The notes beneath the pieces were generated by a model, which was not told the origin of the DNA, made no database searches, and was given only the letters and a program-made list of their open reading frames with translations. A stretch of 64,000 nt of DNA from Chryseobacterium gleum (GTDB lineage Bacteria; Bacteroidota; Bacteroidia; Flavobacteriales_D; Sanyastnellaceae): positions 496,001 through 560,000 of the forward strand of contig CAMCVP010000001.1 of the NCBI GenBank assembly GCA_945881835.1, given 5' to 3'. The position numbers were made by a program, and so were the translations under genes. This document shows positions 15,001-60,485 of the stretch, piece by piece (the stretch's first letter is position 1; every line of letters begins with the position of its first letter).

Positions 15001-18000
15001 AACAATGGAATGGTGTTTCGAACAGCGTTCAATTTGTAGCGCCAACAACAGAGACTTATACTTTTAATTGGGCATACGCAGTATTGGCAGACCCCAATCA
15101 AGATCCAGGTTATTATTTTGTCAATGGTCAAGTTGTTCAACTATCAAATGATTGGGGTGCAAATTATCAGTCAGGATATGTTTCAGTTTCCTTGAATGCA
15201 GGTGATACTTTTGGATTTGGGATCAATTCCTTGGACGATGAGGCGGGACCTGTGTGGTTGGAGATTTCTAACTTCAGTGCAAGATCATACATTGGAGTAA
15301 CTCCCTCATGTACGCAACCAGTAGGGTATGTGTTGACTAATGACGATTGTGATAATGCAAATCCAGCAATTAATCCGGGAGCAGTGGAGATCTGCAACAG
15401 CATAGATGAAAATTGTGATTCAGAAATTGATGAAGGGGTTCAAAATACGTATTATGCAGATGCAGATGGTGATGGATTTGGGGGCAACTCAGAATTTTTA
15501 GCGTGCACAGTTCCCGCAGGATATAGCGCTAACAATTCAGATTGTAATGACAGCTTGGCTTCAAATAATCCCTTATCAAGTGAAATTTGCAATGGCATTG
15601 ATGATAATTGCAACGGTCCATCGGATGAAGGTGTGCAAAGCATATTTTATTACGATGGAGACAACGATGGATTCGGGACAAGCGAAGTTTTCAGCGGACA
15701 GAGTGCCCAGAATTACGGAGCAGGTCAATACCTCGGTTCTTGGGGTCATACGTTCAACTTTCCGACAGCATTAAACAACATAATTAGTTTTAGTTACTCC
15801 ATTACCAATACAGCGGCTATGTCGCAGTGTGTTTTTCGATTCTATGACGGAGGAAATCTAATTGCATCAGTAGAGGCATACCCTCAAAACGGAGAGACAA
15901 TCAGTACCGTTCATAATTTTACTTCTCCTTTGTTTAATATTACGAGCGTAATTGTTTTTTCATATTGGAATCCGGCGTATTTAAATAGTCTGACCTTTAA
16001 TGCCATTCCAAGCTCGGTTAATGCTTGTACACAACCTGTCGGTTACGCCTCGAATAACACTGATTGTAACGATAATAACTTGTCGGTAAATCCGGGTGTA
16101 TTTGATGTTTGCAATGCAATAGATGACAATTGTGATACACAGGTTGACAATGGGTTGTATTATGCAGATAATGATGGAGACGGTTTTGGTTTCATGGGGA
16201 CTGGTGTATTGGCTTGTTCTGCTGTCGTAGGTTATGTGACAGATAGTAGCGATTGTGATGATAACCTCGCTGCCGTTTATCCTGGAGCAACAGAAATTTG
16301 TAACAGCATCGATGACGATTGCGATACACAAATCGACGAAGGCGTTCAGACCAACTATTATGTAGATAACGATGGTGATGGATTTGGAGCAGGCACAGCT
16401 ACTTTAGCTTGTGCATCACCAACTGGATTTGTAACCACCAATACAGACTGCAACAACACCAACGCGGCGGTTAATCCTGATGCAACAGAAGTATGTAACA
16501 GCATCGATGACGACTGCGATACGCAAATCGATGAAGATGTTCAAAACAATTATTTCACAGACGCAGATGGTGATGGGTATGGAACAGGCATAGCAATTTT
16601 AGCATGTACAGCGCCAGCAGGATTTGTTGCAACCAATGCGGACTGCAATGACACCAACGAGGCAGTATATCCTGGAGTGACAGAAGTATGTAATAGCGTA
16701 GACGACAATTGCGATACGCAAATCGACGAAGGCGTACAAAATAGTTATTATGCAGATGCAGATGCAGATGGTTTCGGAACGGGAACAATAACATTTGCTT
16801 GTGCAGCTCCAATGGGTATGGTTGCTAACAATACCGATTGTAACGATGCCCTTGTTACAGTTTATCCGGGTGCACCAGAAGTTTGTAATAGTATAGATGA
16901 CGATTGCGACGGTGGAATAGATGAAGCGGGAGCTCTTACTGTTCCAGAAGTTGTGGCCTCATGTGGACCATACACATGGAACGAAAACAATACGACCTAT
17001 AACACTTCAGGTACCTACTACGCGAACATCCCCGCTGCAACCACATATAACTCATACGAAACCTTTGTCTCTGCCGCGAATAGCGCTGGATATCAACTTT
17101 CAGAAACAGAGGATTTTAGTGGATATTCAGGGTATATGGCTTCAGTTAGTGGAGATTTGGGTGTTGGTTTCCCAACATGGACAGCCACTCAAACCCAAGG
17201 GCAATATCCGTCAATACATGCAATCTCGGTGGGCGGGAGTCAAACTATTGGAGGAAACGCGTATGCTTCTCCAGTTAGTATTCAGTTCTCTTCAGGTGTT
17301 ACGGGTGTGGGAGGAAATTTCTTCGTTTCAAGTGTTTTCGGAGTTGTTTTAAATGCTACAGTGAACATTAACTTGTCTGATGGAACGGCTGTTTCCTTAA
17401 CAATAGGCTCAGCATCTACTTTTACTGGATTTACTACAAATGGACTTTTAATTGAGAGCATAACAATAAATACACCTTTTGTTAATGGGCCAACCAATCC
17501 GTATGTAAGGATTGACAACCTTGTTGTAACAACCGGAACACCTGTATTGCCTTGTGGTGTTGATGTTTTAAATTTAACAATTAACACACCATCATCTTAT
17601 TACGCAGATGTGGACGGAGATGGTTATGGTGCAGGCACTGCAACAAATGCATGTGCTCAATCAACCGGCTTCGTTGCAACTAACACGGATTGTAACGATA
17701 CCAATGCCGCTGTAAATTCTGCAGCTATTGAAATTTGTAACAATATAGATGATAACTGCGACGGTATTATCAACGAAGGTTGTCCTTCGCTCGATACATC
17801 GGAAGAAGTAACCGCTTGTCAATCCTATACCTGGAATGGTCAAACGTATACAACTTCGGGAACGTATACCTACAATGCAACAACCCAAGCTGGTTTCCCA
17901 TACACTGAAACGCTAATTTTAACTATTCAAAGTGCTGTGCCATCAACGCCGTCTTCAGTTACCGGGGAAGGTTACGCTTGTGAATTTTTGCAAGGTGGAA

Positions 18001-48549: not shown

Positions 48550-48668
48550 GCAAATGGCTTTGCGAGGGCGATTTCATCGCGAGGGTCCTTCGGACGAGGG
48601 TCTGCGACGTTTTCAACAACGCAGTTCCAACAACGTAGTTCTCACAACACAGTTCTAACAACACAGTT
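48550..48668. repeat. Hairpin array C (palindromes separated by GAGG)
   Basis: The left part alternates the linker GAGG (four times, including 48546-48549) with small inverted repeats: GCAAA-TGGC-TTTGC, GCGAT-TTC-ATCGC, GTCC-TTC-GGAC and GTC-TGC-GAC. Then GTT-TTC-AAC is followed by four 14-base near-tandem units (48613-48668) built on AAC-GCA-GTT, AAC-GTA-GTT and AAC-ACA-GTT (twice). The array fills the gap between the recQ start and the hicB stop and overlaps the hicB stop. Loops are of the TTC/TGC type on the left and of the GCA/GTA type on the right, as in arrays A and B. Confidence 0.75.
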
Positions 48669-49392: not shown

Positions 49393-49571
49393 ATCATCTT
49401 CGATGATCAATCTGACTTTGTCAGATCAATTGCTGCGCAATCAATCACCTTCGGTGATCAATCCGAAGGATTAATCGGAACGATTGATCGCGAAGCGATT
49501 GATTGCGCAGCAATTGATCACGCAGTGATTGATCTGAAAGATTGATTCGAAGAATTGATCACCGAAGGTGA
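49393..49571. repeat. Hairpin array A, 12 palindromic modules
   Basis: Twelve modules of 11-17 bases, each a (near-)perfect inverted repeat beginning with AT and ending with AT, follow each other with two-base linkers. Examples are ATCATC-TTC-GATGAT, ATTGC-TGC-GCAAT, ATCGC-GAA-GCGAT and ATCAC-GCA-GTGAT. Linkers are CA after modules 1-4, TA after module 5 and TG after modules 6-11. Loops are TTC/TTT/TGC on the left and GAA/GCA on the right, so one strand always shows mostly GNA loops with TG linkers. The array fills most of the 337-base gene-free stretch from 49222 to 49558; nothing else was seen there. The last module contains the stop codon of the ORF6N gene. Confidence 0.9.
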
Positions 49572-50492: not shown

Positions 50493-50627
50493 ATCCTAAG
50501 GATCAATCTGACTTTGTCAGACCAATTGCTTCGCAATTAATCACCTCCAGTGATTAATCCGTAGGATTGATCGGAACGATTGATCGCGAAGCGATTGATC
50601 ATCGAAGATGATTGATCACGCAGTGAT
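50493..50627. repeat. Hairpin array B, 9 palindromic modules
   Basis: It has the same design as array A: AT...AT inverted repeats with three-base loops and linkers CA, TA and TG. Modules 2, 3, 5, 6, 7 and 9 correspond in order to modules of array A; ATCTGAC-TTT-GTCAGA, ATCG-GAA-CGAT and ATCGC-GAA-GCGAT are shared. Module 4 has a damaged centre (CTCCA). The array lies between the start of the ORF6N gene and the FdhF-like gene. Confidence 0.88.
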
Positions 50628-59870: not shown

Positions 59871-60485
59871 TCATGAATTGTTAACATGGCCAAGGCTCTT
59901 CATCGATGTCTTTCCCAAATTGAAAATGGCATCGAGAATAGACAAGTCTTTTTCAAACGGAAAGCGATCGGCAAATACTTGCGGATAACTCTTCAACTCA
60001 ACCGGTCTTATCCCTCGCTGCTTCCATCTTTCGCTAAGAATCTTTGGCTCCGCCAATCTTTCCTCCGGAATCTTTGATTCATTCAATCTTCCCTCTGGGA
60101 TTTGGGGAAACCACCTGCATGACCATTCATGCGCCTTGATATTGAAATCAAAAAGAAACTTCTCTTCCTTCAAAAAAAGTTCTTCTAACTCTTGCTCAAT
60201 GAAATCATACATCGCTGAATTTCCATATGCACTGCGAATGGCTTGCAAAGTTTTTTTGCCGTTGTATTCCGGACTAATGCGAATGTCGCGAAGAAGTTTC
60301 CGCTCACCTCTGGTAGATTCAACAGGAATGGTAAGGGTTTGAACGCCATTACCCGTGAGTATGTCGAATCGATTGCGATAGGTTTGCTTCTGAAAGTATT
60401 CGTCTTGCGCTAAACAGAAATTCTCATCTGCATACAAAACGTACCAGCTCACAGGAGCGAAGCAACACAACGGAAGTTCGTTCAT
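59871..60485 (-). CDS. WbqC-family protein with an internal 15-base repeat insertion
   Basis: This 204-residue protein of the WbqC-like family (PF08889 type) often lies near lepB in this phylum. Its function is not settled. CCFAPVSWY, FQKQTYRNRF, LTIPV and RGERKLLRDIRIS are conserved family blocks. Residues about 129-153 form five tandem pentapeptides (IPEGR, LNESK, IPEER, LAEPK, ILSER). They are encoded by hairpin array D and look like an in-frame insertion into a surface loop. lepB lies 9 bases upstream on the same strand. Confidence 0.87.
   Translation of the reverse strand: MNELPLCCFAPVSWYVLYADENFCLAQDEYFQKQTYRNRFDILTGNGVQTLTIPVESTRGERKLLRDIRISPEYNGKKTLQAIRSAYGNSAMYDFIEQELEELFLKEEKFLFDFNIKAHEWSCRWFPQIPEGRLNESKIPEERLAEPKILSERWKQRGIRPVELKSYPQVFADRFPFEKDLSILDAIFNLGKTSMKSLGHVNNS
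60027..60101 (-). repeat. Hairpin array D, five in-frame 15-base units inside the wbqC-like gene
   Basis: Five units of exactly 15 bases occur. On the plus strand the palindromes are TTC-GCTAA-GAA, TTGGC-TCC-GCCAA, TTCC-TCC-GGAA, TTGA-TTCAT-TCAA and TCCC-TCT-GGGA, separated by TCT. On the coding strand two loops read GGA (a GNA loop) and the linker reads AGA. The unit length keeps the reading frame. Confidence 0.8.

Follow-up and report, generated by a model that had tools for sequence, protein, structure and literature searches.

The 64,000-nucleotide stretch of DNA analysed here (the window), from a Flavobacteriales bacterium, carries, within the gene for a WbqC-like protein, a 75-bp run of five small hairpins joined by AGA linkers (array D, table 1), which probably belongs, as an array of the AGA-linker kind, to a population of tandem micro-hairpin arrays that would grow by slippage and keep their symmetry by template switching. 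As far as tested, and judging from sequence comparisons, this population appears to be confined to one genus. It is the DNA hairpin that is maintained, and not the peptide: that the hairpin persists at the DNA level follows from the observations that the encoded peptides change between species, that the two arms of the stems change together and that the linkers stay uniform.

Array D is read on the minus strand, from 60101 to 60027, as IPEGR-LNESK-IPEER-LAEPK-ILSER, exactly where the original prediction, made from the letters alone, had placed five in-frame pentapeptides in a WbqC-like protein. The fixed 15-base unit proposed at the same time was not borne out. The hairpins (units 1 to 5 of table 1, in DNA order, each followed by AGA) are of 11 or 13 nt, so that with the linker the periods alternate between 14 and 16 nt, and reading them through the codons gives their mean, 15. 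One unit alone shifts the reading frame, and a pair of units (30 nt) preserves it. In the genome of the window (G000; the genus is represented by nine genomes, G000 to G008, of which G007 is the most divergent) the array is partly degenerate, owing to the mismatch in unit 2 and the short stem of unit 5, and falls below the strict threshold of the array finder described below. The frame is open throughout and the peptide follows a regular [IL]xExx[KR] pattern. In an AlphaFold2 model of the protein with a mean predicted local distance difference test (pLDDT) score of 83.7, residues 136-158 score below 50, and array D is thus predicted to occupy a disordered surface loop.

The palindromes are not accounted for by the protein, because synonymous recoding fails to give the pairing: with the protein kept and synonymous codons drawn at the organism's own codon usage, none of 2000 recodings of the G000 array reached the observed value (best, 19 as against 21 bp), while its linker-chained score was attained by 39 of the 2000. 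For the corresponding arrays, the observed pairing was matched by no recoding in G002, G006 and G008, by one each in G003, G004 and G005, and by 37 in G001. Folded as single-stranded DNA, the G000 array was moderately better than its shuffles (z, −1.9), and two congeners gave values of −2.4 and −3.7.

Comparison of the site among the congeners, which are represented by metagenome assemblies bearing the label Flavobacteriales or Bacteroidetes (a freshwater origin is suggested by the sample names only), showed that its length in the seven complete genes of the genus is always a multiple of 3, namely 75 bp in G000, G001 and G008, 105 bp in G003, 93 bp in G004, 45 bp in G005 and 123 bp in G006, with from 3 to 8 linker-bounded units. 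G001 and G003 have different stems (TCGACggaGTCGA, TTGttagcCAA, TTCttgacGAA), and in both of them AGG replaces the AGA linkers throughout the array, two of the G003 linkers being AGT. TTCttagcGAA and TTGttagcCAA differ by the exchange of C:G for G:C in both arms, and both arms have also changed between species in the stems TTGGC/GCCAA, TTGAT/ATCAA and TCGAC/GTCGA. For the 13-nt units, both-sided change was found in 4 of 5 stem pairs, 97% of the cells were paired, and the covariation score was reached in 0 of 500 shuffles; paired arm changes were likewise found, more weakly, in the 11-nt units. The peptides vary between sisters (LAEPK, STESK, LIESK) while the stems remain paired.

The flanks of the array are under purifying selection, with ratios of nonsynonymous to synonymous rates (dN/dS) of 0.06-0.17. 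Between G000 and G001, the dN of the flanks is 0.04 as against a proportion of nonsynonymous differences (pN) of 0.33 in the array; between G000 and G008, the flanks have a dS of 0.68, yet just 2 of the 16 synonymous sites of the array are different. On these comparisons, array and flanks appear to evolve out of step. The 25 residues had been suspected to be an insertion, and they are indeed missing from G007, which has a short unrelated stretch and no array at the site, and from the aligned distant homologues of the WbqC-like protein; the outcome named beforehand as refuting, the same pentapeptides in distant genera, was sought in these homologues and not seen. Assembly error is an unlikely source of the pattern because independent assemblies share the same architecture. 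Two of the congener assemblies (L091 and L096), in which the gene is 86-87% identical to that of the genus, are titled Chryseobacterium gleum and are probably mislabelled.

When a finder of perfect hairpins repeated in tandem with an unvarying linker was applied to 1.24 Mb of G000, it returned 46 arrays (score ≥7), and 1 when applied to a first-order Markov shuffle, a contrast that is descriptive, since finder and threshold were set after the arrays had been seen. Their units are tandem and of 12-20 bp, with a free stem sequence, and their linkers form families (TTGA/TCAA, TCAT/ATGA, CCTC/GAGG, ATTC/GAAT, AGA/TCT and a few others). The arrays cluster, with 20 neighbours within 1 kb where approximately 1.5 are expected, and neighbours include arrays of different families. 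Most loops are triloops with C-G as the closing pair, and those of the GNA class, which is stable as a whole, exceed TNC on one strand, the counts in the TTGA family being 41 and 1. The same loop motif occurs in GCGAAGC, a very stable DNA mini-hairpin (PMC4686876).

Array D shares its AGA linker with arrays elsewhere in the G000 genome, and it can be assigned to the AGA family on the grounds of its linker, its outer T-A pair and its architecture. It was originally grouped with the intergenic arrays of the window; the large ones, at 49394-49571 and 50525-50627, belong instead to the TTGA/TCAA family. The idea that the repeat had entered the gene holds at the level of linker and architecture only, and its units, sought in the other AGA arrays of the 1.24 Mb read, matched none of them; we infer a descent of array D from other AGA arrays. 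A 16-base pattern of the AGA family had 7 to 44 matches per genome in eight of the nine genus genomes and none in G007; each of the 105 other genomes of the family had at most one. A longer pattern was unmatched in 394 other genomes of the class, these patterns probing one common AGA unit rather than all linker families. In 200 kb of G007 that were scanned, no array scored 6 or more. Two loci of a genome from another genus (G019; L125 206-284 and L229 88-152), near contig ends, carry identical tandem TAGtcaCTA repeats with a GTCGT linker, the uniform stems of which are unlike those of the genus arrays.

Arrays occupy at least eight genes besides the WbqC-like one. AGA arrays lie in frame in the genes for phosphoglucomutase, acetyl-CoA synthetase, a GT2 glycosyltransferase, aspartate kinase, Ppx/GppA, a Pmp3-domain protein and a secreted protein with transglutaminase-like motifs, a name given by eye with no match in Pfam. 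The phosphoglucomutase array is present in five species and the G007 site is empty; the acetyl-CoA synthetase site, where, on the solved enzyme 2p20, the insert comes after residue 565 and before residue 574, is filled in G000, G006 and G008 and empty in G004, G005 and G007; and the GT2 array ranges from almost none (G001) to approximately 90 residues (G006). In a GT-C-type glycosyltransferase (Pfam Glyco_transf_22, PMT_2; L077 12439-14049 in G000), two loops carry arrays, which are of the ATTC and CCTC families in G000 and G004 and, in the same loops, of the AGA and TCT families in G003 (L153), with neither loop holding an array in G007; L151 (G005) is a further locus of this gene that was examined. 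Nearly all other AGA coding arrays use one frame, which gives a hydrophilic and cysteine-free Q-D-x-S peptide, array D being exceptional in its longer stems, alternating phase and other reading phases. Arrays at L060 7462 (in a methyltransferase ORF, or open reading frame) and L051 1768 (upstream of an ArsR-like domain) were not counted as coding and probably lie in 5′ regions or in ORFs called too long at the start. Small loops of the proteins of this genus are thus rewritten again and again by hairpin DNA.

With slippage and template switching as the putative agents, units would be added or removed in blocks that leave the frame intact (at array D, 30 bp or two units) through slippage between copies of the identical linker, with selection on the reading frame acting afterwards. 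The arms would stay complementary while changing through template switching inside the hairpin (quasi-palindrome correction), and linkers and units become uniform along the array. An open frame and a position in a loop would explain why the protein tolerates the array. Template switching is known to make the arms of inverted repeats alike in coding sequences (PMC8604942) and to preserve stems (PMC8794818). Of the features expected of it, paired arm changes were found here, in between-species data, but loop orientation, for which inversions are expected, mostly tracks the linker.

Several points weigh against this account. Template switching by itself predicts neither the polarity of the loops nor the exchange of linker families at a single site, which leaves scope for an enzyme specific to hairpins. 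The G001 array folded no better than its shuffles (z, −0.2, DNA parameters). The covariation was scored in small alignments on units delimited at the linkers by eye, several of them from one species, so that the counts do not represent independent events. Array D may, moreover, be of independent origin, because its units occur in no other AGA array and its reading phases are different. A dedicated, clade-specific and still active system that writes linker-hairpin arrays as single-stranded DNA into genes and gaps, swaps linker families at a given site and creates new in-frame protein loops throughout the genome may be imagined, and is rather unlikely.

Among the other explanations, mobile palindromic elements, copied or inserted by an enzyme acting on single-stranded hairpins (an IS200- or RAYT-like Y1 transposase or another, RAYT being the transposase associated with repetitive extragenic palindromes, REP) with the linker as recognition tag, as proposed for REP, are possible though unlikely. 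They would account for the strand polarity of the loops, for the families supplanting each other in the GT-C glycosyltransferase gene and for the clustering of different families, and both Y1_Tnp loci that were read adjoin arrays. On the other hand, Y1_Tnp, present in G000, G001, G004 and G006, was not found in the array-bearing G002, G003, G005 and G008, nor in G007, several of these assemblies being incomplete; array D and the other arrays have no common unit sequence, and stems vary freely, unlike copies of one element. RAYT as the only agent was discarded on the ground that Y1_Tnp is undetected in several array-bearing genomes, and a reverse-transcriptase source (retron, diversity-generating retroelement or group II intron) was discarded with RVT_1 (PF00078) present in 0 of the 9 genus genomes. 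The Y1_Tnp genes next to arrays are IS200-like and have their own hairpin ends (L147, G000 C1 448580-448924; L144, G006 C64 6943-7287).

RNA structures with a regulatory or protective role for the mRNA would explain covarying stems within a transcribed region, but like arrays occur in unrelated genes and gaps and in many orientations, three species lack the acetyl-CoA synthetase array and the G001 array folds as its shuffles do, which makes this reading very improbable; an RNA element or terminator was rejected because the arrays occur inside genes and in many gene orientations. Least probable of all, and already disfavoured, is a pentapeptide repeat selected as a charged protein linker with the palindromes as a by-product of codon choice. 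The open frame, the regular peptide pattern and the nearly uniform hydrophilic frame of the other AGA arrays would fit it; the recoding result for G000, the differing peptides of sister species with stems still paired, and the lack of the repeat in G007 and distant homologues do not, and the protein repeat was rejected as the driver on the recoding.

The resemblance to coding palindromes of Rickettsia that was first pointed out is one of behaviour. Rickettsia palindromic elements (RPE) are found in frame in unrelated housekeeping genes and also between genes (PMC10969869, PMC2996958), with similar reports from Wolbachia and Methanocaldococcus, and in-frame insertion into unrelated conserved genes is also seen here, G007 having empty sites, as do G004 and G005 in acetyl-CoA synthetase. 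RPE are, however, of approximately 100-150 bp, non-tandem and conserved within a family in sequence and peptide, whereas the present arrays consist of tandem 12-20-bp units with free stems, in which only linker and architecture are kept and a conserved element sequence is lacking. Palindromic amphipathic repeat coding elements (PARCEL) are tandem protein-coding repeats with DNA dyad symmetry and variable copy number (PMC2996958), as found here, but consist of a 25-residue motif in ORFs of unknown function rather than an unconserved peptide in conserved enzymes; in this comparison, made by description, the repeat of array D is of 5/10 residues and Pfam gives WbqC only. REP and REPIN, with RAYT, share small hairpins, a short conserved tag, strand polarity and clustering (PMC3733652). 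They differ in being extragenic, with a GTAG or CGTC tag and a conserved stem, while the linkers here are TTGA, TCAT, CCTC, ATTC, TCT and their complements, not GTAG or CGTC, and stems are free. In the mitochondria of Nematomorpha palindromy is retained together with coding (PMC6649704), and template-switch mutations homogenize arms in coding DNA (PMC8604942, PMC8794818); these are long single inverted repeats or single events, and not tandem arrays with linker families. By the features tested, array D is neither RPE nor REP, and is best read as RPE-like coding palindromes, yet tandem and without a conserved stem sequence.

A literature search that left preprints and most subscription journals outside turned up nothing on arrays of this kind in Flavobacteriales, which is limited evidence of novelty. 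Known coding palindromes come from few lineages and are mostly dispersed elements with a fixed sequence; here the stem is free and only the architecture of hairpin and linker persists, in at least nine genes including those of central metabolic enzymes. Filled and empty sites in related species provide a natural series on the spread of palindromic DNA and the acquisition of disordered loops, and the template-switch account of stem maintenance becomes testable in coding DNA.

Table 1. Array D, its host gene and other hairpin arrays of the window (positions are those of the window).
Feature	Position	Strand	Remarks
WbqC-like gene, host of array D	59871-60485	minus	204 aa; PF08889, E 3e-24; orthologues detected in 56/60 relatives; flanks under purifying selection
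Array D	60027-60101	minus	75 bp; five hairpins with AGA linkers; residues 129-153
Unit 1	60090-60100	minus	TCCCagaGGGA; 4-bp stem
Unit 2	60074-60086	minus	TTGAatgaaTCAA; one arm mismatch compared with TTGATtgaATCAA of congeners
Unit 3	60060-60070	minus	TTCCggaGGAA; 4-bp stem
Unit 4	60044-60056	minus	TTGGCggaGCCAA; 5-bp stem
Unit 5	60030-60040	minus	TTCttagcGAA; 3-bp stem, 5-nt loop
TCAA/TTGA-family array	49394-49571		12 hairpins; score 37; other family than array D
TCAA/TTGA-family array	50525-50627		7 hairpins; score 20
GAGG/CCTC-family array	48550-48608		4 hairpins; score 10.5

The larger of the two TCAA/TTGA arrays of the window has the same order of stems (TCATC, TCTGAC, TTGC, and TCACC or TCAC) as two arrays elsewhere (L088 14427-14544 and L058 2073-2175), and this common order points to copying or conversion among arrays. 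The GAGG array is adjoined, at 48632-48668, by a small array with a 5-nt linker (AACgtaGTT CTCAC AACacaGTT CTAAC AACacaGTT). The window also contains, at 16268-16771, a 195-bp tandem repeat in 2.6 copies.
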